Origin: Gemmatimonas sp. | GTDB lineage: Bacteria > Krumholzibacteriota > Krumholzibacteriia > LZORAL124-64-63 | Assembly (NCBI GenBank): GCA_013824755.1 | Contig: PNOJ01000017.1 | Coordinates: 1 to 33,453, forward strand | DNA length: 33,453 bases | Reading direction: 5' to 3' | Part shown: positions 19,751 to 33,270 of the stretch, piece by piece | Numbering within the stretch: position 1 is the stretch's first letter | How the letters are laid out: every line of letters starts with the position of its first letter | Translations under genes and position numbers: made by a program | The notes under the pieces: generated by a model | The model's input: the letters and a program-made list of their open reading frames with translations, nothing else | What the model was told of the DNA's origin: nothing | Database searches by the model: none

Positions 19751-20992
19751 CTAGTCGATGACGGCGCCGGTCAGGGCCTCGGCGGGCGCCGCGACGTGGC
19801 CGGCCTCCTCGACCATCTTCTTCTTCTCTCCCCCGTCGTCCCGCACGCCCAGGTCCGTGCGCGCCCACTTGCCGGCGGCGGTGACCCGCTCGGCCTGCTC
19901 GTCGCGCTCCCAGTCGATGCCGGGCTCCTTCAGGAACACGAAGCCGTCGCCGTCGTGGTCGATCATCACGAGGTCGCCGCGGCGGATCTGGTCGCTGCAG
20001 ATGTAGTGCGAGACCGGCGTCACGATCCGCTTCTCCACCACGCGCTTCAGGGGGCGGGCGCCGTACTCGGGATCGGTGCCCTCCTCGACCAGCCGCTCCT
20101 TGGCGCGGCGGGTGACCTCCAGCAGGAAGGGCTCGGCGCTGCCCAGCGCGCGGTGGTGCACCTGGGAGATCTGGTTGTCCAGGATCTCGAAGAGGTGCTC
20201 GCGCTTGAGGGTGTGGTAGGTGATCTGCTCGTCGAAGCGGTTCAGGAACTCCATCGGGAAGATCTTCTTGGCCTCGCGCGAGACGGCGGTTTCGAGGTCG
20301 CGGTCCAGGCTCTCGTCGCCGTCGGCGGCGCGGAAGCCGATGCCGCTGCGGCTCAGGCGCTCGTTCATCGCCTGGCTGCCCACGTTGGAGGTCAGCACGA
20401 TGATCGAGCCGGTGAAGTCCACTTCCTCGTTGTTCGCCAGGACCAAGTGCCCGTCCTCGAGGATCCCCAGCAGGGTGTTCCACATCTTGGGGTGGGCCTT
20501 CTCGATCTCGTCGAACAGCACGATCGACAGGCGGCGCGCGGCGTCGGGCGGGTACATGTCGGCCAGCTTGCCGCCGTCCTCGCAGATCATGCCCGTGCGC
20601 TTCTCGAGCGCCTTGAGGTGGTGCTTGTCCAGGTTCTCCTGGGCCAGCAGCGGGCGGATCTCGCCGCCCACGTAGCCGGGCGGCGAGCCCAGCAGCTTCG
20701 AGATGTTGTAGTGGGCCGAGAACTCCTGGCAGTTGATGCGCGTGAAGGCCCGGCGGTCGCCGAACAGCGACTCGGCCAGGCAGCGCACCGTCTCGGTCTT
20801 GCCGACGCCGGTCGGCCCCAGGAACATCATCGTCAGCAGCGGCCGCTCGGGATCGTGGATCCCGGCGATCAGGCGGCTGAAGCAGTCCGCGATTTTGTCC
20901 GTGGCGGCGGGCTGGCCCACCACCATGCGGTTCATGCGCAGGCGAAAGCGACGCAGCTGCTCGTTGGCCACACCCGTCTTCAGCTCGATCAC
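19751..20992 (-). CDS. AAA+ ATPase, single Clp/Hsp100 D2-like module
   Basis: GTG at 20992 with GAGGAGA RBS; FLGPTGVGKTETVRCLAESLFGD, GSPPGYVGG pore loop, IVLFDEIEKAHPKMWNTLLGILEDG, VLTSNVGSQAM, SGIGF, FPMEFLNRFDEQI, GARPLKRVVEK. Confidence 0.9.
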   Translation of the reverse strand: MIELKTGVANEQLRRFRLRMNRMVVGQPAATDKIADCFSRLIAGIHDPERPLLTMMFLGPTGVGKTETVRCLAESLFGDRRAFTRINCQEFSAHYNISKLLGSPPGYVGGEIRPLLAQENLDKHHLKALEKRTGMICEDGGKLADMYPPDAARRLSIVLFDEIEKAHPKMWNTLLGILEDGHLVLANNEEVDFTGSIIVLTSNVGSQAMNERLSRSGIGFRAADGDESLDRDLETAVSREAKKIFPMEFLNRFDEQITYHTLKREHLFEILDNQISQVHHRALGSAEPFLLEVTRRAKERLVEEGTDPEYGARPLKRVVEKRIVTPVSHYICSDQIRRGDLVMIDHDGDGFVFLKEPGIDWERDEQAERVTAAGKWARTDLGVRDDGGEKKKMVEEAGHVAAPAEALTGAVID

Positions 20993-21063: not shown

Positions 21064-21105
21064 AGCCCGTCCTCCGCACCTTCATCGGTAAGCGGCGGAC
21101 GGGCT
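21064..21105 (-). terminator. Hairpin downstream of the nucleotidase-like gene
   Basis: AGCCCGTCCTCCGC / GCGGCGGACGGGCT arms (14 bp, one mismatch) with an inner ACC/GGT pairing, 25 bp after the stop at 21130. Confidence 0.65.
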
Positions 21106-21129
21106 TGAGGCGGAATCGACGGGCGGGAT

Positions 21130-22872
21130 TCAGTCCGCCGCGGGGGTCCTGGCCAGGTAGGGGGCCTGGGCGGCGGCGTTGTCCTCGACCCAGCGGTCGT
21201 CCACGCGGGGGCGCACCGGGCTGTGCCGCCGCAGGTACTGCTCGAAGGAGGCGTCGATCGTGATCTGGGTCAGCTCGATGTCCCCGGCGGGCACGGTGGT
21301 CAGGAAGTCCAGGCCGCTGTTGCCCTCCATCAGGAAGGTGGTGGTGACCACGCGGTACGTGCGCTCGGGGTCCAGGGGGGCGCCGGCGATCTCCAGCTCG
21401 CAGACCCGGTCGCCGTCGGGGCGCTGCTTGTTGTAGCGCATGCGGAGGCCCGAGACGCAGATGCCGCCGGAGTCGCCGGCGACCTTGCGCTCGACCAGGG
21501 TCCGGATCAGGGAGCCCGGCATCTTCACCACGACCAGCTCGTTGCCGAAGGGCAGCACGCTGAAGACGTCGCGCGCCGTGATGTTGCCGGCGGGGACGTC
21601 GGCGCGCAGGCCGCCGAGGTTCTGGAACGAGAAGTCGGCGTCGAAGTACTCCCGCATCGCGTCGGTGACGAGGTTGCCCATCAGGGAGGCGCCGGGGTCG
21701 CCGCGCGTGAGGTTGACGGCCGCGCTGCCGACGATCTTGCCCATCTCCGCGTCGGTCTTCGCGAGGTAGGGCTGCAGGACGCGGCGCATCGCCGGGTCGG
21801 GCCACAGCTCGTCCTCGAAGAGCGTGATCAGGACGCCGCGGTCGTGCGGCGTGTCGTAGCCCAGCAGGGTGCCGGTGGCGGGGTCGATCTCCAGGATGGC
21901 GTGGCCGACGCTGGAGCCGTTGCCGAAGCTCTCGAAGCAGAGCGTGTGGGTCATGGGGTCGATCCAGGGCTGCTCGTAGCCGCGGTGCGTGTGGCCGCCC
22001 ACCGCGACGTCGATGCCCTCGACCGCGTTGACGATCTCCATGAGGTTGGTGGCGCCCCCGGTCACGGTGCCGTAGGTCCCGCCCTGGGACTCCGCCTGGC
22101 CGGTCTCGGCCTCGCCGCCGGCGCCGACGATGCGCCGCCAGCCCTCCTGCGGGTCGAAGGGCAGGCCCTCGTGGATCAGCAGGAAGACGAGGTCGGCGCC
22201 GTCGGCGCGCAGCCGGTCGCGCCAGGTCTCGATGGCGGGCACCATGGGGTCGAAGATCAGGCCCTCGATGTTCGCCGGGAAGGACATGTGCTCGGTGCCC
22301 GTGGTGATGATGCCGATGACGCCGATCTTCAGGCCGGCCCGCTCGAGCATGAGCGTGGGCACGCACCAGTCGACGATCTCGCCGTCCTCCGCGTCGCGCA
22401 GGTTGGCGCAGACGAAGGGGATGCGGGTGCCGTTGGCCAGGCGCTCGGTGTTGTCGCGGCCCAGGTCGAAGTCGTGGTTGCCCGGCACGATCACGTCGTA
22501 GCGGAGCTGCTCGAAGTACGCCATGACGGCGTCGCCCCGGGTCTTGGAGCCCACGGGCGTGCCCTGGAAGAAGTCGCCGACGTCGACCACCAGGACGGCC
22601 TCCCCCGCGGCGGCGGCCTCCTCGCGGATCCCGGCGAGGTAGGTCGCCAGCGACGCGCCGCCGCCCAGGGGCGGCGGGAAGGACGGGTTCATGAAGCGCG
22701 CCGGCTCCGGTGCGATGTGGCCGTGGACGTCGTTGGTCCAGATCAGGTGCAGCCGGACGGGATCCTGCCGCGCGTCGGCGGTCCCGGCCCCGCCGGTCGA
22801 GCCGGCGGCGGCGAGCAGGATGAAGGCCAGGGCCGCGGCCGCGGGCCGCAGGCGACGGGCGCTGATGCTCAT
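21130..22872 (-). CDS. Secreted 5'-nucleotidase / UDP-sugar hydrolase-like metallophosphoesterase
   Basis: Signal peptide; IWTNDVHGHIAPEP, VDVGDFFQGTPVGSKTRGDAVMAYFEQLRYDVIVPGNHDFDLG, GGHTHRGYEQ; C-terminal domain NLTRGDPGASLMGNLVTDAMREYFDADFSFQNLGGLRADVPAGNITARDVFSVLPFGNELV. ATG 22872 follows GAGGAG. Confidence 0.92.
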   Translation of the reverse strand: MSISARRLRPAAAALAFILLAAAGSTGGAGTADARQDPVRLHLIWTNDVHGHIAPEPARFMNPSFPPPLGGGASLATYLAGIREEAAAAGEAVLVVDVGDFFQGTPVGSKTRGDAVMAYFEQLRYDVIVPGNHDFDLGRDNTERLANGTRIPFVCANLRDAEDGEIVDWCVPTLMLERAGLKIGVIGIITTGTEHMSFPANIEGLIFDPMVPAIETWRDRLRADGADLVFLLIHEGLPFDPQEGWRRIVGAGGEAETGQAESQGGTYGTVTGGATNLMEIVNAVEGIDVAVGGHTHRGYEQPWIDPMTHTLCFESFGNGSSVGHAILEIDPATGTLLGYDTPHDRGVLITLFEDELWPDPAMRRVLQPYLAKTDAEMGKIVGSAAVNLTRGDPGASLMGNLVTDAMREYFDADFSFQNLGGLRADVPAGNITARDVFSVLPFGNELVVVKMPGSLIRTLVERKVAGDSGGICVSGLRMRYNKQRPDGDRVCELEIAGAPLDPERTYRVVTTTFLMEGNSGLDFLTTVPAGDIELTQITIDASFEQYLRRHSPVRPRVDDRWVEDNAAAQAPYLARTPAAD

Positions 22873-22903
22873 GGTCACTCCTCGCGGGGGATCGCCCCCC
22901 CGG

Positions 22904-24193
22904 CTAGAAGGCGTAGGTCAGGCCCGCGCCCACGCGGAACCGGTTGTCCTCCACGCGCGACGTCGGCGCCACGTCGTAGCCGTCCGGATAGTCGTACCAG
23001 TGCGCCTGGCGGCTGCTCTGCTTGCCCAGCTCCGCGGAGACGGAGAACATCCCGGCCGCGTAGGGGAAGCCCACGCCCGCGCTGAAGCTGGCCGTGCCGG
23101 CCTCGCCGTCGGCGTAGCTGTCCAGGTGGCGGAAGCCGAAGCGCAGGGGCATGCCGTTGTAGAACGTGTGCTGCACGCCGAGCTGGACGTCCATCGTGTT
23201 CTCCAGGGCGGCGCCGGCCGCCGCGTCGCGGCTGTCCTCCAGGTCCTTCCACTCGGTGTAGACGACGTCGGCCGCGAAGACGGTGCGGGGCTCGGAGCGC
23301 GGGTAGTAGGCGAAGCCGGCGCGCAGACGGCCGGGGTAGCGCACCGAGACGCCCTCGACCGCGACCGCGGGGGCGGCGGCGCCCAGCGTGGTGGTCGTGG
23401 TCCAGTCGCCCTCGATCTTCAGGGGCGTGTCCCAGGCCGCGCCCAGCACGAAGCGGTCGCCCGCGCAGGCGCGCACGCCCAGGGTGGCGTTGAGGCCGTC
23501 GGCGTCGTGCGACTCGGAGACCAGGTAGCTGTCGGCGGGGACCTGCACGTCGCGCCGGTCGAAGTCCAGGGTGCGGGTCCCGAAGACGTAGTGGACCGTG
23601 GCGCCCAGCGAGACGCCCGGGCCGGGCTCCCAGGCCGCCGCCGCGCTCAGGTCGCGCAGGCTGCCGCCGCCGACGACCGACCGCTCCTCGAGGATCTGGT
23701 CGTAGGGGTTGGCGGTGGTGCTCGGGTCGCGGATCTCCTCGCGGAACTCGTACCCGAAGTCGTAGCGGGTGGTCAGGGCGGCGCCGACGCCGAGCCGCGG
23801 CAGGGCGCGGCCGGACAGGGCGAAGCCCGTGTCGAAGTCGTGGCTGCGGTTGCTGGCGATCGCCGTGTCGGTGATGTAGCTGCCGAAGCTGTCCCAGAGG
23901 GGCTGGAAGCGGTCCTCGTGGTCCTGGGCCAGCGAGCCGGCCGCGTCCAGGCGCCAGCCGGCGGCCTCGCCCAGCATGGCGGGGTTCAGCACGGCGGAGA
24001 AGCCGCCGCGGAACAGCGCCGCGCCGGTGCCCGACATGGCTTCGAGCTCCGGGTGCCGGAAGTTCGCGACGTCGCCGTAGGCGGCGTTCAGCGCCTGGCC
24101 GGCGTCGGCCGGCCGCGGCGCGGCGAGCGACAGGAGCGCGAGCAGCACGGCCGCCGCCGCGATGGCGCTGTGATTCCTGGTCGTGAGCATCAT
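22904..24193 (-). CDS. FadL/OmpP1-like outer-membrane beta-barrel protein
   Basis: Signal peptide APRPADAG; MSGTGAALFRGGFSAVLNPAMLGEA-type N-terminus; alternating amphipathic strands; terminal GAGLTYAF ends in Phe. Confidence 0.75.
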   Translation of the reverse strand: MMLTTRNHSAIAAAAVLLALLSLAAPRPADAGQALNAAYGDVANFRHPELEAMSGTGAALFRGGFSAVLNPAMLGEAAGWRLDAAGSLAQDHEDRFQPLWDSFGSYITDTAIASNRSHDFDTGFALSGRALPRLGVGAALTTRYDFGYEFREEIRDPSTTANPYDQILEERSVVGGGSLRDLSAAAAWEPGPGVSLGATVHYVFGTRTLDFDRRDVQVPADSYLVSESHDADGLNATLGVRACAGDRFVLGAAWDTPLKIEGDWTTTTTLGAAAPAVAVEGVSVRYPGRLRAGFAYYPRSEPRTVFAADVVYTEWKDLEDSRDAAAGAALENTMDVQLGVQHTFYNGMPLRFGFRHLDSYADGEAGTASFSAGVGFPYAAGMFSVSAELGKQSSRQAHWYDYPDGYDVAPTSRVEDNRFRVGAGLTYAF

Positions 24194-24209
24194 CGTCTCG
24201 ATCTCCCGG

Positions 24210-26780
24210 TCAGAAGGTGTAGTCGAGCTGCATGCGGAACGTCGTCCAGTCCCGCGGCGCGTAGCTGCTCTCGATGTCGGCGCCGTACGCGTCCTGGTAG
24301 GCGCGCACGTCGAGGTAGGTCCGCGGGAGGTTGTGGTCCCGCGTCGCCTTGATCTGGAAGAACAGCCGGTCCGACACGCGGCTCTCGATGCTGGCCCAGT
24401 TGCGGAAGCCGCGGCCGTCGACGACCACGAACTCGTTGCCCTCGAAGTTCCAGACGAAGCCGTTGTAGATCTCGCTGCTGAGGCTGAGCGAGACGCCGGG
24501 CGACAGGCGGTGCTCGTACATCGCCTGGAACGCGTGGGCGGGCATGCCGGCGGTGCCGACGCCCGGGATGCCGTCGTCCTCGTAGGGCGTCGTGCCCCCG
24601 TCGGGGGTGCCGCTGAGGCGGGCCCGCGGCGGGAACATCACGTTGCTGGTCATGTACATGAAGCGCAGGCGGTTCATGTTGCTCAGCAGCGCGATCATCT
24701 CGAACCGCGACTCCCAGGAGCGGAACCAGCGCACGTCGTCGGGGTTGGTCTCGCTGCGGCTGCTGAAGCGGTGGCGCAGGCGGAAGCGCAGGTTGAAGGT
24801 GGGCTGGTACTCCAGGCGCACCGTGTAGCGCTGCAGGTCCGCGTTGTCGGACTTGCGCTGCCACTGGTCGTACTCCAGGCCGTTGAGGATCAGCGTGCGG
24901 CTGATGCGGTAGCGCGAGGACAGGAAGATCCCCTGCTCCGGCTTCGGCTGCGGCGTGTTGACCGCCAGCCAGGAGTAGAGGTCGTCGTTCAGGCGGAACG
25001 GCGAGTCCAGCAGGGTCTGCTCGTAGCGGTTGTCGTTGGAGAAGGCCCGGTTGTAGGGGTTGTCGAAGCCCAGGTCGTAGTCGCGGTAGAGGGCCAGCAG
25101 GTTCAGGTCGTCCCACTGGGCGAAGGCGTTCAGGACCAGGGCGTCGGGGCTGTTCCCGTGGAACCAGCCGGCCTTCGGGTCCTGCAGGACGCCGTACTCG
25201 CCCTGCAGCGAGACGTTGTCGACCACCGTCTGGAACTCGGCGCCGTAGACGCGGCGGAACTTGTGCTCGGTGCGGGTGCCCGCCGCCGCATCCTCCTCGA
25301 CGCTCGTGTAGCCCGACCACAGCTCGCTGTCGCGGGCCTCCAGCAGGTCGCGGTCCACCAGGCTGTAGTAGCTGACCAGGGTGGACGGGTCGGCGTCGAA
25401 GGCCCGATCGTACTTGGCCTCGTAGGCCGTCACGCCCACGTAGGAGGCGTCGTCGAGCATGAACTTCAGGTTGCCGCCGACGATGTCCTCGCGGAAGGCG
25501 TCGCGCTTCAGGAGCGTCGGGGTGTCCTTGGCCGCGCCGACGGCGTAGGAGCGCCCGGCCTCGAAGCCCAGGTGGTCCTGCAGCCAGTCGTCGGTCGGCC
25601 GCGGCTTCATCACGATGTACTGGTTGACCGTCCCGTCCGGGTTCAGGATGCCGTCCTTGCGGTCCCAGGACATGAACATCGTGCCGTGCAGGCGGCCGTA
25701 GCTGGCCTCGGCGGCCAGGCCGGTCAGGGCGAATTCGTGGCTGCGGCTGAGGTCGCCGCGCACGCCGATGGGCCGCTTGTTCCAGCCGAAGCCGGTCTTG
25801 CGGCTCATCATGAAGTCCGTGTTGTCCATGATCAGGCCCTGGCCGAAGGCGACGCGGTAGTTGCCGAAGTAGAGGCGCTTGAGGCGCAGGTCGCCGAAGC
25901 GGCGGTCGTCGACGCCGTAGTAGCCCTTCATCGTCTCGCGCCAGGAGTCCTCGCCCAGGCCGCGGTGGGTCAGCACGCCGGCCCGGAAGCCGTCGCCCAG
26001 GTTCAGGGTCAGCTTCTGGGTCAGGTGGGCGTCGCCCTCGGTCAGCAGCGTGCCGGCCGTGATCTCGTCGGCGTTGGTCAGGCCGCCCGCGCCGGCGATG
26101 TCGCTGTCGTCGAGCACGTAGGGCGTGTCGTACCAGCGCAGCTGGTAGCTGCCGTGGACCTTGCTGCCCGCCGTCGCCGGATCCACGCCGCCGCCGTAGA
26201 CGACGAAGTCGCGGATGTTGCGGAAGGCGAAGTAGCTCAGGCCGTCGCTGCGCCGCAGCTGGCGGTCGTCGGCGAAGGCGCCGAGGCGCTGCCGCGCGCG
26301 CAGGATCGCCTTCGCGTCCACCGGCGACACGTTCTGGAACGACATCAGGTCGAACAGGTCCAGGCCGTTGATGTCGACCGGGTCGCGGATCAGGTCGAGG
26401 TACTCGTCGACCAGGCCCTCGCTCGCGCCCTCCTGGCTCAGGAAGCCGCTGACCTGCTCGTAGGAGGCGGCCAGGCGGGCCATGCCGGCGTCCGCGGGCG
26501 GGGGCGGCAGGGTCATCACCAGGGGCTTGAGCGCGGCCAGGTCGGCCGCCGTCATCCCCTCGACCTCCATGAGGTCGTAGACGTTCCCGAAGAACCGGAC
26601 GAAGGTCCGGTAGTCGACGATCGCCCGCGCCAGCTCCTCGCTCACCGGCAGGCCGCGGATCTGCTCCAGCGTGGCCTGGTTGAGGTCGAGCTTGCCGGCG
26701 GACGCCGACGCAGCCTGCACGGCGGGGACGGCGGCCAGCATCAGCGCCGCCATCCACACCGCTGCGATCGTGTTCCTCAC
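24210..26780 (-). CDS. Helix-hairpin-helix (ComEA-like) domain protein fused to putative outer-membrane beta-barrel
   Basis: Signal peptide; KLDLNQATLEQIRGLPVSEELARAIVDYRTFVRFFGNVYDLMEVEGMTAADLAALKPLV and VDINGLDLFDLMSFQNVSPVDAKAILRARQRLGAF (HhH-like); long beta-strand-rich C-terminal part ending MQLDYTF. Confidence 0.82.
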   Translation of the reverse strand: MRNTIAAVWMAALMLAAVPAVQAASASAGKLDLNQATLEQIRGLPVSEELARAIVDYRTFVRFFGNVYDLMEVEGMTAADLAALKPLVMTLPPPPADAGMARLAASYEQVSGFLSQEGASEGLVDEYLDLIRDPVDINGLDLFDLMSFQNVSPVDAKAILRARQRLGAFADDRQLRRSDGLSYFAFRNIRDFVVYGGGVDPATAGSKVHGSYQLRWYDTPYVLDDSDIAGAGGLTNADEITAGTLLTEGDAHLTQKLTLNLGDGFRAGVLTHRGLGEDSWRETMKGYYGVDDRRFGDLRLKRLYFGNYRVAFGQGLIMDNTDFMMSRKTGFGWNKRPIGVRGDLSRSHEFALTGLAAEASYGRLHGTMFMSWDRKDGILNPDGTVNQYIVMKPRPTDDWLQDHLGFEAGRSYAVGAAKDTPTLLKRDAFREDIVGGNLKFMLDDASYVGVTAYEAKYDRAFDADPSTLVSYYSLVDRDLLEARDSELWSGYTSVEEDAAAGTRTEHKFRRVYGAEFQTVVDNVSLQGEYGVLQDPKAGWFHGNSPDALVLNAFAQWDDLNLLALYRDYDLGFDNPYNRAFSNDNRYEQTLLDSPFRLNDDLYSWLAVNTPQPKPEQGIFLSSRYRISRTLILNGLEYDQWQRKSDNADLQRYTVRLEYQPTFNLRFRLRHRFSSRSETNPDDVRWFRSWESRFEMIALLSNMNRLRFMYMTSNVMFPPRARLSGTPDGGTTPYEDDGIPGVGTAGMPAHAFQAMYEHRLSPGVSLSLSSEIYNGFVWNFEGNEFVVVDGRGFRNWASIESRVSDRLFFQIKATRDHNLPRTYLDVRAYQDAYGADIESSYAPRDWTTFRMQLDYTF

Positions 26781-27664
26781 GGCGCCTCACCGCCCCAGGC
26801 GAAGGTCATCCCGAACTGGTGGCTGGGGGACAGCACCCCGCCGCCCGTCGAGAAGCCGTAGTCGACCGTGATCCCGCCGTAGCCGTAGCCGAAGCCGCCG
26901 GTCACCAGCGAGGGGTTGGTGGCCACGCCGCCGCGCAGGCGCAGGGCGCCGAGCACCGCGAACTCGACGCCGCCGCGGTAGCGGGTCTGGCCGTCGAGGG
27001 AGTTGCCCACCTCGAAGGCGGTCACGACGCCGTCGTAGGGCAGGTAGGAGATGCCGCCGGCCAGCTGCTGGACGAGCGCCTCGTTGTCCAGGCCGATCTG
27101 GGGGTTGTTCAGGTTGCGGACCATCACGCCCAGGCGGGTGCGCTCGTGCAGGACGACCTGCAGGCCGACGTCCGCGCCCACGACGCTGGCGTGACCGGGG
27201 TCGACGCCGCCGACGGACTCGGCGTACTCCAGGTCGTAGAGGTTCAGCGCCGTGCCGAAGCTGATCGTCGAGTGGAGGTCCTCGTACAGGGTCAGGCCGT
27301 GGGCCAGCGTGAACGTGCTCTCGGTCGTGAGGTCGACGTCCTGGTACGTCACGGCGAAGCGGCGGTAGCCGAAGCCGAGCGCGCCCAGGCGGGCCGACAG
27401 CGGCACCACGCCGCCGAAGTACGTCTGCTCGTTGAAGCTCAGGCCGTAGGGCTTCACGTAGGAGTTGCCCAGCGAGGCGCGGGACTGCCCCGCCATCCCG
27501 GCCGGGTTGAAGAAGGGCGCGAAGGCGTCGTCGGCGACCGCCACGGCGGCGCCGCCCATGGCCCGCGCCCGCGGGCTGGTGTCGACGTTCTCGAAGGCCG
27601 CCTGCGCCGTGGACGCGGCCAGCCCGAGCACGAGGGCGACGGTGATCGATGCGCTGCGGATCAT
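26777..27664 (-). CDS. PorV/PorQ-like outer-membrane beta-barrel protein
   Basis: Signal peptide; NVDTSPRARAMGGAAVAVADDAFAPFFNPAGMAGQSRASLGNSYVKPYGLSFNEQTYFGGVVPL, typical of the PorV/PorQ/UPF0164 N-terminus. Confidence 0.8.
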   Translation of the reverse strand: MIRSASITVALVLGLAASTAQAAFENVDTSPRARAMGGAAVAVADDAFAPFFNPAGMAGQSRASLGNSYVKPYGLSFNEQTYFGGVVPLSARLGALGFGYRRFAVTYQDVDLTTESTFTLAHGLTLYEDLHSTISFGTALNLYDLEYAESVGGVDPGHASVVGADVGLQVVLHERTRLGVMVRNLNNPQIGLDNEALVQQLAGGISYLPYDGVVTAFEVGNSLDGQTRYRGGVEFAVLGALRLRGGVATNPSLVTGGFGYGYGGITVDYGFSTGGGVLSPSHQFGMTFAWGGEAP

Positions 27665-27679
27665 GCCTCTCAGCCTCCC

Positions 27680-30600
27680 CTAGTTGCTCAGGCGCGTGGA
27701 CACCACGGCCGGTGCGGTCTTTTCGATCCTCTTGCCTGTCCTGGGGTCGGTCACCTGGAGGTGGACGACGTACATCCCGGCCCGGGCCAGCTCGTAGGTC
27801 TCGTTGCGTCCGTCCCACACCCTGATCGACGGCGTGTCGGGCACGATGGAGGCGTCGCCGTCGAAGCGCGAGTCGTAGAGGTGGCGCACCAGCCTGCCGT
27901 TCAGGTCGAGGATGCGCAGGACCGTCTCCGCCCCGGGCGAGGCCGTGAACGTGATGCGGAAGGTCTCGCCGCGCGAGGCCAGGAAGGTCTTCGCCGGCAC
28001 GCCGAGGGTGATCTCGCCGGAGCCCACGGGCATCGGCGGCGCCACCGGGGTCACGACCTGGACGGCCCAGGTCGTCGCCAGGTTCTCGCTGGTCTCGTCG
28101 GCGCCCTCGAAACCGTTGCTGCCGGACTGCGCCTGGGTGCCTTCCGCCGCGTCGACGCGGGCGTAGGCCTCGCCGTTGGCGTGCTCGGTCATGAACGGTT
28201 CGGGGTAGCCGGCCTCGGCGGCGTAGGTGCTGGCGCCGATGGTGATGCCGGTCTTGACCACCGAGTACGAGTTGCCCTCGCCCCAGATGAAGACGTCGAT
28301 GTCGGTCACCAGGTCGCTGACGCCGTCCCAGAAGAACAGGGCCACGATCTCGCCGTTGATGTAGGTGCCGGTGTCCGAGAGGTTGGACAGCGTGGGCACG
28401 GTGGCGCCGTTGATGCTGCCTTCGAACACCTCGCGCATGTCGGCGACGGAATCCTCGTAGTCGTCATCCTCGAACAGCTCGTAATACGGCATCACGCCCC
28501 AGGCGGAGAGGAAGCTCTGGCTGCCGCCGATCGAGACGGTGATCGTGTCGCCGGCCGCCAGCACCGCGCCGTCGGGGAACTTCGCCAGGAAGTCGGTGAA
28601 GTCGCCGCCGCCGAGCGTGGCGCGCGACGGCGTGCCGTTCGGCAGGTTCCAGTAGGCCTGGCTCTCGTAGTACACCGCGTCGGTCAGGTAGAAGTTGCGC
28701 AACGGCACGTCGAACGTGTTGGGGTTGCAGATCTCCACGAACTCCGCGGCGGTGCCCAGGGTGCAGACCTTCGTCATCAGCAGTTTGGCCAGTCCGTACC
28801 CGGGGACGATCGTCTCGACGACGTAGGTCGGGGCCGCGGCGGCGCCGCCCTCCGGCCAGACCGCCGAGGCGCCGCCCGCGCCGGCGGCCGTCACGTACCA
28901 GGCCACCTCGACGCCCTCGACCTGGGCGGGGATCGTGCCGCTCCAGGTGCCGTTGCCGTTGTCGGTGCAGGCGACGTCGGTGAAGGCGCCACCGTCCAGG
29001 GAGTAGCGCAGGGTCACGCCGGTCACCGCGGCGGTGCCGGTCACCGCGGCGGTCACCTCGGCCGACTCGCCCGGCTGCGGGTGCTGCGGGTCCAGGGTCG
29101 CGACCGTGACGGCCAGCTCGACCACCTCGTAGGCGCCGGGCGTGCCGGCGGCGGCGGCCCAGGTGCCGCTGATGTTTTCGCTGGTCTCGTTGTTGCCCAG
29201 GGGACCGTTGCCGCCGAACTCGGTCTCGGTGCCCTCGCCCGGATCGAGGCGCTGGAAGCTGCCCAGGATCTCGTGGGCCAGCATGAACTGGTCCTGCGAG
29301 GCCACGGGCGTGTCCGCCGCGTAGGTCGAGCCGTTGACCGCGACGCCCGTCTTGTCCACGCGGGCGCTGGTGCTCGAACCCCACATGAACATGTCGATGT
29401 CGGTGACCAGGTTGCTGGCGCCGTCCCAGTAGTAGAGCACGACGATCTCGGCCGTGTTGGTCAGCGTCGCCCAGGCGCCGGTCTCGTCGCCCTGCAGGCT
29501 GCCCGGGAAGACCTCGCGCATGTTCGGGACCGCGTCCGCCGAGGCGCCGTCCTCGCGGATCTCGAAGTCGGGCGCCGCGCCCCAGACCGTCTGGAACTTC
29601 TCGCTGCCGGCCAGCGACAGCGACAGCGCCTCGCCCGGCTCGATGGTCGCGCCGGCCGGGAAGCGGGCCTGGAAGTCCGTGAAGGCGCCGCCGCCGATGG
29701 TTCCGGAGGAGGGGTTGCCCGCCGGCAGCAGCCAGTAGCCCTGGGTGTTGTAGACCGCGTCGGTGACGTAGTAGTTGTCCAGCTCGACGGTCTCGTCGGT
29801 CGGGTTGTAGATCTCGATGAACTCGTGGTCGCTGCCCTGCACGCAGACTTCGGTCAGCAGCAGGTGCGGCGGGCTGTCGCCCGGATCGGGCGCCAGCTGC
29901 ACGGTGTAGGTGCGCACGTAGAACGGGGCGCCGTGGGGCAGCGCGCTCGCGCCGCCGGCCGCCCCGACGGCGGTCACGTACCACTGCACGACCGTGCCGG
30001 CCGTCAGCGCGGGGATCTGCGCGCTCCAGACGTTGCCCGCAGCCGTGGCGGGCGTCTCGGTCCAACCGGCGTTGGTGCGCCAGTGCAGGGCCGCCGCGTT
30101 CGCCGCGTTGCCGGCCGGGGACAGGACCGTCGCCGAGACGGTCACCGGCAGGGTGTTGTAGGGCGTCGCGGGCGAGGTCTCGGCCGCGGTGACCAGGGGC
30201 ATCGCCACCGGCGCGGCCCCGGTCGAGGTCGGGTCCTGGTCGGCGGTCACGCTCCAGGTCGCCGTCAGGTTCTCGCTGGTCTCGTCGTGCCCGGTCAGGC
30301 CGTTGCCGCCGGTGGCGGTCTCGGTCCCCTCGTCGGTGCCGAGCCGCTGGAAGCAGAACCCGTAGCTGTGGATCGTCGTGAGCGACTGCTGCGAGCCCAC
30401 GGCGGTGTCGGCCAGGTAGGCGCTCGCGACGGCGTCGGCGTCCGGACCGTCGACCGACACGCCCGTCTTGTTGATGCGCAGCGAGGTGCTCGTCCCCCAG
30501 GTCAGGTAGTCGAGATCCTCCACCAGGTCGGTCGCGCCGTCCCACTGGTACATCACCAGGGTCTCGGAGACGTCGTCCAGCCAGCCGCCGGTCGGCACCG

Positions 30601-31117
30601 TGTTGGTGGCGCCGTTGCCGAGGCCGAAGCCGATGCTGCCGGGGAACGCCTCGACCAGCTCGGGCACGGCGTCGAGCGTGACGCCGTCCTCGAACAGCTC
30701 GTAGTCGGGCAGCCGCTCGTGCGAGGTCTGGAAGGCCGCGCTGCCCCGCAGCGCCACCACCACCGACGCTCCCGGAGCCAGCGTCGCGCCCGCGGGGAAG
30801 CGGGCGTGGAAATCGCCCGAGGTGCCGCCGCCGCCGGCGCCGCCGCCCGTCACGATGTTGTAGTAGTAGGACGACGCGCTGAGGCTGTTGCTCGCGTCGG
30901 ACAGGTAGACGAGCGAGAGATCGGCCGACGCGGCGCCCGCGTTGGTGATCTCGACGTACTCGCTGCCGTACGACGTGACGCCAGGCCGTTCCTTGACGAG
31001 GACCTCGCTGATCAGCAGATGATCGGCGGCGGCGTGGACGGTCGCCGCGCAGGCGATCGTCGCGGCCACGGAGGCGATCCATGCGCCGCGGCGGGGGATC
31101 CTGGATTGGCTGGTCAT
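27680..31117 (-). CDS. Secreted protein with three lamin-tail-like repeats and C-terminal FlgD-Ig/sorting-type domain
   Basis: Signal peptide IASVAATIACAATVHAAA; HLLISEVLVKERPG..EYVEITNAG, HLLLTEVCVQGSDHEFIEIYNPT, KLLMTKVCTLGTAAEFVEICNPN; C-terminus VLRILDLNGRLVRHLYDSRFDG...IRVWDGRNETYELARAGMYVVHLQVTDPRTGKRIEK. Confidence 0.85.
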   Translation of the reverse strand: MTSQSRIPRRGAWIASVAATIACAATVHAAADHLLISEVLVKERPGVTSYGSEYVEITNAGAASADLSLVYLSDASNSLSASSYYYNIVTGGGAGGGGTSGDFHARFPAGATLAPGASVVVALRGSAAFQTSHERLPDYELFEDGVTLDAVPELVEAFPGSIGFGLGNGATNTVPTGGWLDDVSETLVMYQWDGATDLVEDLDYLTWGTSTSLRINKTGVSVDGPDADAVASAYLADTAVGSQQSLTTIHSYGFCFQRLGTDEGTETATGGNGLTGHDETSENLTATWSVTADQDPTSTGAAPVAMPLVTAAETSPATPYNTLPVTVSATVLSPAGNAANAAALHWRTNAGWTETPATAAGNVWSAQIPALTAGTVVQWYVTAVGAAGGASALPHGAPFYVRTYTVQLAPDPGDSPPHLLLTEVCVQGSDHEFIEIYNPTDETVELDNYYVTDAVYNTQGYWLLPAGNPSSGTIGGGAFTDFQARFPAGATIEPGEALSLSLAGSEKFQTVWGAAPDFEIREDGASADAVPNMREVFPGSLQGDETGAWATLTNTAEIVVLYYWDGASNLVTDIDMFMWGSSTSARVDKTGVAVNGSTYAADTPVASQDQFMLAHEILGSFQRLDPGEGTETEFGGNGPLGNNETSENISGTWAAAAGTPGAYEVVELAVTVATLDPQHPQPGESAEVTAAVTGTAAVTGVTLRYSLDGGAFTDVACTDNGNGTWSGTIPAQVEGVEVAWYVTAAGAGGASAVWPEGGAAAAPTYVVETIVPGYGLAKLLMTKVCTLGTAAEFVEICNPNTFDVPLRNFYLTDAVYYESQAYWNLPNGTPSRATLGGGDFTDFLAKFPDGAVLAAGDTITVSIGGSQSFLSAWGVMPYYELFEDDDYEDSVADMREVFEGSINGATVPTLSNLSDTGTYINGEIVALFFWDGVSDLVTDIDVFIWGEGNSYSVVKTGITIGASTYAAEAGYPEPFMTEHANGEAYARVDAAEGTQAQSGSNGFEGADETSENLATTWAVQVVTPVAPPMPVGSGEITLGVPAKTFLASRGETFRITFTASPGAETVLRILDLNGRLVRHLYDSRFDGDASIVPDTPSIRVWDGRNETYELARAGMYVVHLQVTDPRTGKRIEKTAPAVVSTRLSN

Positions 31118-31190
31118 CGGACCTCGCTCCCTTGCGTAGGGAAAACGTTGACGGGGATGATCTCGGTTGTAGGCCGTTGCCGGGCCGTTT

Positions 31191-31220
31191 AACATAGTCC
31201 ACGGCCGGGTGCGGGGCCAA
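31191..31220 (-). promoter_or_regulatory. Possible promoter for the lamin-tail/outer-membrane operon (TTGGCC-18 bp-TATGTT)
   Basis: Minus strand TTGGCC (31220-31215), 18 bp, TATGTT (31196-31191), about 75 bp before the ATG at 31117. Confidence 0.3.
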
Positions 31221-31237: not shown

Positions 31238-31696
31238 TCAGGCCGGCGGAGCTTCGTCGGGGAAGGCGCGACCCAGCTCCTCGACCGTCGTCGATCCGCG
31301 CAGGGCCGGCAGGAAGCCGGGAGCCTTGACCTGCCGCACCAGCCGGGCCAGGAGCCTGAGCATGGCGCGCGGGTCCTGTTGAGGCCCCACGATCAGCAGC
31401 AGCACGTCCACGGGCGGCTCGTGCCCCTCCCGGGTCAGGGGCGGGGACAGCGTGGCGACCGCCAGCAGGGGCCGCTCGACCAGGCTGGTCCGGATGTGCG
31501 GGATGGCGACGCCCAGGCCGACGTTGGTGTCGCCGACGGCTTCGCGCGCGAGGATCTCCTGCCGCAGCGCCCGGTCGTCCGGCAGTCCGACGGCGCGGGC
31601 CACGGCCGTGGCGAGGGCGGCGACGGCCTCCTCCTTGCCCGCGCAGGCCAGGCGCGGCAGCAGGCAACCGTCGGGGATGTGCGTGCGCAGGTCCAT
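31238..31696 (-). CDS. PTS EIIA (fructose/Ntr-type) domain protein, second copy
   Basis: GDTNVGLGVAIPHIRTSLVERPLLAVATL (active-site His region), DVLLLIVGPQQDPRAMLRLLARLVRQV. Confidence 0.85.
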   Translation of the reverse strand: MDLRTHIPDGCLLPRLACAGKEEAVAALATAVARAVGLPDDRALRQEILAREAVGDTNVGLGVAIPHIRTSLVERPLLAVATLSPPLTREGHEPPVDVLLLIVGPQQDPRAMLRLLARLVRQVKAPGFLPALRGSTTVEELGRAFPDEAPPA

Positions 31697-31749: not shown

Positions 31750-33270
31750 ATGTCACAGAACGACCCCTTCCTGCCCATGACGCGTCGGCGTCGCCTCGCG
31801 ACGCGGCGCGACCGGCTGGTGACCGCGCTGCGCCGGACGCTGTCGCCGCCCGCCGCGACGCCACGCCGCGAAGGACCGCCCAACCTGCTGCTGCTCGCGG
31901 TGGACACCCTGCGCGCCGACCACGTCGGCCCCCGCCAGCAGGGCGGGACCCTGACCCCCGTCCTGGACGCCTTCGCCCGCGACGGCCTGGGCTTCGCCGA
32001 CGCGAACGCGCCCGCGCCCTGGACCCTCCCCTCGTTCGCCGCCGCGCTGACCGGCACGATGCCCTGCCTGCACGGCGCCGGGATGAGCGGCGACCGGCGC
32101 AACATGGCGCAGCAGGCGCCCTCGCGCCTGCGCGACGGCGCGACCACGCTGGCCGGCCACCTCGCCGCACGCGGCTACCGCACCGGCGCGTTCTTCTCGA
32201 ACCCCTTCGTGGGTTTCGGGCTGGCGGAGAGCTTCCAGGAGCGCCGCTACCGCAACCACGCCGCGCCCGACCTCGCCGCGCTGGCGCTGGACTGGATCCG
32301 CCGCCGGGCCGACCGGCCGTTCTGCGCCTTCGTCCTGTTCAACGACGTGCACGAACCGACGATGCCGCCGCGCCGCCTGTGCGCTCCCCTGCTCGAAGCC
32401 GCGGGGGCCGGAGGCTACGACGACGCGCAGCTGCGGGCGCTGGCGCGCTGGGGCGACGAGGCGGTCGGCGTGCCCCACCTCGGCCGGGCCGCCTTGCCGC
32501 TGGACGGGCCGGCCGCCCTGGCCCTGGCCGCCAAGCGGGCGCTGTACGCGGCGTCGGTCCGCCACGTCGACGAATCGCTGGGGTCGATCCTGGAACGCCT
32601 CGAGGACTGGGGCCTCGCCGCCAACACCCTGGTGATGGTCTGGTCGGACCACGGCGAGGAATTCCTGGAGCACGCCGACCTCGCGCGCTGCTGGGATCAC
32701 GACCCGCGCGACCTGCGCGCCATCGGCCACGGGCACACCCAGTTCCAGGAGCTGCTGCACGTGCCCTGGCTCGCGCGCGGCCCCGGCCTGCCGTCGGGCA
32801 TGGTCGTGCGCCGGCCGGTCTCGCTCTGCGACCTGGCGCCGACGGCCGCCGCCTGGCTGGGGCTGCCGCCGCTCCCGGCGCCCGCGCACGCGCACGCCTC
32901 CCTGCTCGGCAGGGCCCAGGCCGCCGAGGCCGCGGCGTCGACGGGAGCCGAGCGGGTCCTGCTGTCGGAGGACATCGCCTACGGCCCGGATCTGGTCGGC
33001 GTGCGCAGCGGGCCGTGGAAGCTCATCGCCCGGCGCCGGCCCCTCGCGGCGCTGGCGCTCTTCCACCTCGGGGACGATCCGCTGGAGACGCGCGACCTGC
33101 GCGCCGAGCAGCCGCAGCGCCTGCAGGAGCTGCTGGACGCGGCGTCGGTGTGGGACCGCGTCGACGATCACGGCGACGGCGGCGATCGCGGGGAGCCGGA
33201 CGCGTCCGGCGACTGGGAGAAGCTCGACGACAGGGTGCGACGCCAGCTCCGCGAGCTGGGATACGCCTGA
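31750..33270 (+). CDS. Sulfatase-fold (alkaline phosphatase superfamily) hydrolase
   Basis: PNLLLLAVDTLRADHVG, APWTLPSFAAALTG, TLVMVWSDHGEEFLEHADL, GHGHTQFQELLHVPWLARGPG. Confidence 0.88.
   Translation: MSQNDPFLPMTRRRRLATRRDRLVTALRRTLSPPAATPRREGPPNLLLLAVDTLRADHVGPRQQGGTLTPVLDAFARDGLGFADANAPAPWTLPSFAAALTGTMPCLHGAGMSGDRRNMAQQAPSRLRDGATTLAGHLAARGYRTGAFFSNPFVGFGLAESFQERRYRNHAAPDLAALALDWIRRRADRPFCAFVLFNDVHEPTMPPRRLCAPLLEAAGAGGYDDAQLRALARWGDEAVGVPHLGRAALPLDGPAALALAAKRALYAASVRHVDESLGSILERLEDWGLAANTLVMVWSDHGEEFLEHADLARCWDHDPRDLRAIGHGHTQFQELLHVPWLARGPGLPSGMVVRRPVSLCDLAPTAAAWLGLPPLPAPAHAHASLLGRAQAAEAAASTGAERVLLSEDIAYGPDLVGVRSGPWKLIARRRPLAALALFHLGDDPLETRDLRAEQPQRLQELLDAASVWDRVDDHGDGGDRGEPDASGDWEKLDDRVRRQLRELGYA

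Follow-up and report, generated by a model that had tools for sequence, protein, structure and literature searches.

A conserved outer-membrane gene block linked to type IX secretion in Krumholzibacteriota and its possible relation to extracellular nucleic acids

Five consecutive minus-strand genes in the genome (84%-complete) of an uncultured Krumholzibacteriota bacterium form a real and strongly conserved outer-membrane module, which is linked to the type IX secretion system (T9SS) and is largely uncharacterised. The genes lie in a stretch of 33,453 nucleotides, contig C17 of that genome, hereafter the window, and encode a secreted protein with lamin-tail domains (LTDs), here called the cargo, a PorV-like barrel, a barrel preceded by helix-hairpin-helix (HhH) domains, here called the HhH-barrel, a FadL-like barrel, and an exported 5'-nucleotidase-family phosphoesterase. 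An earlier, sequence-only reading had proposed that this set captures extracellular DNA and salvages nucleosides and phosphate from it. The conserved linkage, the T9SS involvement and the nucleic acid-associated domains at both operon ends support that proposal, while the HhH hairpins, the missing nuclease and the supposed binding role of the LTDs do not. The best single hypothesis, to be held tentatively, is that the proteins form one T9SS-based envelope complex and take nucleic acid or nucleotides from outside the cell as their substrate.

Gene order and conservation

The cargo gene occupies positions 27680-31117 and is followed by the genes of the PorV-like barrel (26777-27664), the HhH-barrel (24210-26780), the FadL-like barrel (22904-24193) and the nucleotidase (21130-22872 from an ATG, or to 22878 from a GTG). 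The five co-directional genes and the gaps of 15, -4, 16 and 31 bp that had been read between them were confirmed, and the domain assignments also hold, with three LTD stretches, a PorV-like protein, two HHH_3 matches joined to a modelled barrel, a FadL superfamily member and a 5'-nucleotidase. The start of the cargo gene, which had been placed at about 31220, is most likely the ATG at 31117, which also agrees with the orthologue starts.

Genes identified by Pfam elsewhere on the contig are mostly on the minus strand too, so the shared orientation is weak evidence for a module; the strong evidence is the conserved gene order. In tblastn neighbourhoods, the order cargo-PorV-HhH-FadL-nucleotidase is found in all 21 home-family contigs of sufficient length, with inter-genus identities of about 40-70%. 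Three sister-family genomes (L063-L065), in which the other neighbours mostly change, keep the block too, and the co-conservation on which the sequence-only reading depended is thereby borne out. A search with the alignment found the HhH-barrel in 38/38 home-family genomes, in three of the four genomes of one sister family and in none of the other sampled Krumholzibacteriota families, in which the residual matches are short ComEA-like proteins. Three public contigs labelled Fibrobacter, Latescibacterota and Gemmatimonadales (L029, L030 and L045) carry fully syntenic copies, 54-98% identical, and are probably mislabelled Krumholzibacteriota.

The sister-family cargo has lost the lamin-tail domains and its homology is confined to the last ~115 residues. 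It carries instead OB-folds of the ExeM/NucH type (NF033681, E 2e-10 to 2e-6), of which the OB part alone matches and the EEP catalytic domain is absent. In two of the three sister-family genomes an extra gene precedes the nucleotidase inside the operon (L064:10234-11658 and L065:10778-12232), encoding a putative lipoprotein with a stand-alone ComEC metallo-beta-lactamase (MBL) domain (E 8e-15 and 2e-13).

The cargo, the PorV-like barrel and type IX secretion

The lamin-tail domains of the cargo are located at about 30737-31033, 29501-29872 and 28517-28753 and are joined by Ig-like linkers. The protein begins with a Sec-type signal peptide, as judged by eye, and ends with a sorting-type domain at 27683-28021 (AlphaFold2 pLDDT 93), so it has both the export signal and the C-terminal domain of T9SS cargo. 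The best PDB fold match of this domain is PorU, followed by PorZ, FlgD and the T9SS-bound RemA-CTD among others. The domain is conserved in the cargo of both families and in the orthologues it matches PorU and, weakly, TIGR04183 profiles; the window cargo itself has no match among the curated models for the T9SS C-terminal domain.

The translocon SprA and PorU, which mark a T9SS host, were each found in 58/58 relatives searched (E<=0.001), and the PorU copy of the source genome scores 416.9 bits against a cut-off of 420. T9SS involvement, which the sequence-only reading had suggested from the PorV-like protein, is therefore firmer now. The PorV-like protein matches the NCBIfam model PorV_fam with E 1.6e-13, but reaches 51 of the required 90 bits, and its profile matches the PDB structure of PorV (6h3i) with E 3.4e-9. 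It is presumed to be a dedicated carrier or anchor of the cargo, which we infer would stay anchored at the cell surface on this barrel, as PorU does on PorV.

The module resembles the PorU-PorV attachment system in that a PorV-like barrel adjoins a protein that ends in a PorU-like domain, in a genome that encodes SprA and PorU. It differs in having several PorV-like paralogues, each beside one type-A-like cargo, and in the HhH-barrel that follows the pair in the window. In Flavobacterium johnsoniae, one PorV serves all type A cargo and dedicated SprF/PorP shuttles serve type B cargo (PMC12618676); type-A-like cargo with PorV-like partners of their own appear to represent another arrangement.

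Elsewhere in the same genome there are 37 further matches to the cargo-type C-terminal domain. Three giant proteins with this domain, on contigs C86, C55 and C21, are each directly followed by a PorV-like barrel, and contig C56 has PorU with such a barrel after it; across the genome, it seems usual for these proteins to have a PorV-like partner of their own. Another frame on C21 (13069-14805), unlinked to the operon, encodes a 718-aa protein with two ExeM-type OB-fold matches and a T9SS-type C-terminal domain, and similar frames occur in many relatives. A search of the literature library found no paper on the T9SS of Krumholzibacteriota or on PorV together with HhH-barrels.

The HhH-barrel and its relatives

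In the HhH-barrel, with 856 aa, a signal peptide precedes two ComEA-type HhH domains (26520-26699 and 26202-26381) and a beta-barrel (about 24213-26168) of ~24 strands in the AlphaFold2 model (pTM 0.70). The HHH_3 model is matched with E 5e-18 and 65.5 bits, above its cut-off of 27, and a C-terminal Phe is found in the orthologues. The Pfam scan found no TonB plug domain, and the N-terminus is taken by the HhH domains, which sets the protein apart from SusC and other TonB-dependent transporters. The inward strand positions hold 22% Arg/Lys against 12% Asp/Glu. The HhH region also matches the structural protein GspK of the type II secretion system (T2SS). The HhH-barrel shares the HHH_3 family with ComEA, the periplasmic DNA receptor, and is unlike it in the fusion to a barrel, in the loss of the DNA-binding hairpins and in having no link to competence genes.

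Relatives outside the phylum were found by tblastn in Parabacteroides and Bacteroides and confirmed by profile over the HhH and barrel segments, with further copies in Phocaeicola and Prevotella; Bacteroidota and other phyla were sampled through plasmid records. The protein of Parabacteroides distasonis (WP_121956131) is an example, with an N-terminal degenerate HhH and matching barrel segments, and, like the HhH-barrel of the window, it has a PorV-like neighbour, whose gene lies 13 bp upstream. These Bacteroidota proteins differ in length (about 690 vs 856 aa), share ~24% identity with the HhH-barrel of the window, have one recognised HhH domain instead of two, and lie outside any LTD/nucleotidase operon. 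In a single contig labelled Sumerlaeota (L059; label unverified), the gene of a PorV-HhH fusion stands ahead of those for an HhH-barrel and a FadL/BamG-like barrel. The fusion (L059:8-901) is a PorV-like barrel with two ComEA-type HhH domains at its C-terminus, one of which has a canonical GLGP hairpin. The core of the module thus appears to be the PorV-like protein, the HhH-barrel and the FadL-like barrel, with the lamin-tail protein and the nucleotidase as its variable part, unlike in the first reading. The sources searched assign no function to the HhH-barrel family.

The FadL-like barrel and the nucleotidase

Among characterised families, the FadL-like barrel matches BamG best (NCBIfam, E 4e-15), with 55.8 bits, below the equivalog cut-off of 250, and its profile matches PDB structures of BamG and TodX (E 9e-12 to 6e-9), which places it in the FadL superfamily. 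It differs from BamG in this lower score and in having no BAM context. The nucleotidase has a metallophosphatase domain (PF00149, E 2e-9) and a 5'-nucleotidase C-terminal domain (PF02872, E 3e-37), with all the family motifs, DxH, GDxxxG, GNH[DE] and GHTH, and the active-site motifs are kept in nearly all orthologues checked. It also matches UshA (E 2e-42).

Nucleic acids as a candidate substrate

Nucleic acid-associated domains occur at both ends of the operon, and the sister family has independent substitutes there; these ExeM-type OB-folds and the ComEC-type MBL point toward nucleic acid, in agreement with the first reading. Bacterial LTDs co-occur with OB-folds and with hydrolases of the MBL, synaptojanin and calcineurin types, and the OB-fold is needed in ExeM (PMC6085458). 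LTD proteins and nucleotidases are found together in DNA-degradation loci of Ca. Izemoplasma, proven DNA-eaters (PMC8289736). The window operon is similar to these loci and to ExeM and Xds in linking a lamin-tail or OB-fold surface protein to nucleotidases, and differs from them in lacking a nuclease domain and in having outer-membrane barrels instead of Gram-positive-type transporters.

Several observations weigh against a role in nucleic acid capture. In 29/29 sequences, neither HhH domain has the G-h-G hairpins through which ComEA contacts DNA: LPGIGPxxA has become LP[I/V/L]xEExA in the first domain, and the second reads NVS[P/A]xDA. The first domain is also acidic, with a mean net charge of -3.9. 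The HhH domains can thus not be taken as DNA-binding, as had been proposed, and the loss comes close to the lack of a DNA-binding surface that the sequence-only reading had named beforehand as grounds against itself. The fold search with the HhH-barrel model returned generic barrels only, with TM at most 0.31, and was uninformative. The Arg-lined barrel was dropped as evidence for a polyanion channel, since the FadL-like barrel, used as control, shows the same enrichment of conserved Arg. No nuclease is encoded in the operon, the EEP catalytic domain of ExeM/NucH is absent from the window cargo and the source genome has no full ExeM-type match. The lamin-tail domains were rejected as proof of nucleic acid binding, because the LTD of the nuclease Xds is dispensable for activity and the OB-fold is required (PMC6746945). 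Beyond the phylum, the HhH-barrels of Bacteroides, Phocaeicola and Prevotella have no PorV-like neighbour, and the Sumerlaeota-labelled locus encodes S8 proteases and no nucleotidase. Finally, ComEC is encoded in families from which the operon is absent, and the genome has a separate, canonical ComEA-like protein of 153 aa at another place.

In the favoured reading, the lamin-tail protein would be exported by Sec and then pass outward through the SprA translocon, and its PorU-like C-terminal domain would dock on the adjacent PorV-like barrel, displaying the cargo at the surface. The HhH-barrel would be the core outer-membrane channel, with its two HhH domains facing the periplasm, and the FadL-like barrel could be a second channel or a partner. 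The nucleotidase may act in the periplasm on the incoming material, which would be used as a source of phosphate or nucleosides and not for transformation. The gene order and its conservation, the family assignments, the T9SS components, the fold of the C-terminal domain and the intact nucleotidase motifs are observed, and the association of the proteins in a single complex, inward transport and a nucleic acid or nucleotide substrate are all inferred. A stronger form of the proposal, rather doubtful at present, is that the operon encodes a new class of outer-membrane machine for nucleic acid acquisition in the FCB group, in which a T9SS-displayed nucleic acid-binding protein on its dedicated PorV-like barrel feeds a large HhH-gated barrel and a periplasmic nucleotidase, joined in some families by the ComEC-type MBL, processes the product. 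Such a machine would be comparable to SusCD, but for nucleic acids and with neither a TonB plug nor a type IV pilus.

Alternative functions

The alternative with most in its favour, possible although less likely than nucleic acid use, is a T9SS module for surface display or attachment, in which the PorV-like protein, the HhH-barrel and the FadL/BamG-like barrel would be an accessory assembly or anchoring complex for large proteins with the C-terminal domain, the HhH domains would be structural or protein-protein modules and the nucleotidase a passenger. The pairing of a PorV-like barrel with a PorU-like domain, the affinity of the FadL-like barrel to BamG, the degenerate hairpins with an acidic first HhH domain and the match to GspK all agree with such a module, as does the variation of the cargo (LTDs, OB plus Ig domains, S8 protease) around a constant PorV-HhH-FadL set. 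However, the T9SS is found in all Krumholzibacteriota genomes searched and the HhH-barrel in two families only, so the HhH-barrel is dispensable for the T9SS, and the operon has retained or gained a nucleotidase and a ComEC-type MBL. A second, improbable alternative is the uptake of another anionic or phosphorylated nutrient, such as nucleotide-sugars, phospholipid head groups, polyphosphate or teichoic-like polymers, from which the nucleotidase-family enzyme would strip phosphate, with the barrels importing what results. UDP-sugar hydrolases such as UshA and cyclic phosphodiesterases belong to the 5'-nucleotidase family, FadL family members import hydrophobic compounds, the inward face of the HhH-barrel is rich in Arg/Lys, and a gene of the sulfatase/phosphodiesterase family stands immediately upstream on the opposite strand; but the Arg enrichment is unspecific and the sister-family OB-folds and MBL indicate nucleic acid.

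Uptake of DNA for natural transformation, with the HhH-barrel conducting DNA across the outer membrane in place of the PilQ/ComEA step, is very unlikely, even though the HhH domains are ComEA-type, ComEC is present and the PorV-HhH fusion of the Sumerlaeota-labelled contig keeps a canonical hairpin. Riemerella needs an HhH protein and surface proteins for transformation, and the screen that identified them found no classical outer-membrane machinery (PMC8459023). In that HhH protein, which is predicted to be periplasmic, the HhH spans residues 236-301; its architecture is different, and it was not adopted as a homologue of the HhH-barrel (PMC8459023). Since ComEC is present whether or not the operon is, and the ComEA-like gene lies at another place, the operon is no locus for general competence, and natural competence was rejected as the main reading; the loss of the hairpins also speaks against it. 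It is hardly credible that the five genes have unrelated functions and are held together by general synteny. The flanking genes for an EIIA protein, an AAA protein and a sulfatase are likewise conserved in the home family, and minus-strand genes prevail on the contig, but the five-gene order persists in the sister family, where the surroundings have mostly changed, and the PorV-HhH-FadL core is seen again beyond the phylum.

The HhH-barrel family spans common gut Bacteroidota and uncultured phyla, and gains here partners (a PorV-like carrier, a FadL-like barrel and a T9SS cargo) and a substrate that can be tested. Should this prove to be nucleic acid, the module would help to explain how extracellular nucleic acid is moved or harvested at the outer membrane in this Gram-negative group. 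Even if this role fails, PorV-like carriers dedicated to type-A-like cargo would extend the T9SS scheme.

Flanking genes and hairpin

The cluster is wider than five genes on the same strand. A hairpin at 21064-21102 on the minus strand, between the nucleotidase and AAA genes, had been noted 3' of the last stop and is real (-33.1 kcal/mol, z -2.64), with an equally good structure in 3/200 shuffles; it has no T-run, and a scan for promoters and terminators gave no more matches than in shuffles. The AAA gene (19751-20992, minus strand), which lies 137 bp downstream of the block, encodes a ClpB-like AAA ATPase (AAA_2 E 2e-35, ClpB_D2-small E 7e-18), which is cytoplasmic, and its position beside the nucleotidase is kept in relatives. 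An EIIA/PtsN-like gene (31238-31696, minus strand; PF00359 E 2e-17) lies 120 bp upstream, a place that it usually holds in the home family and mostly does not in the sister family; in tblastn neighbourhoods both flanking genes are usually retained in relatives. On the opposite strand, at 31750-33270, a gene of the sulfatase/phosphodiesterase family is a divergent neighbour kept in the home family.

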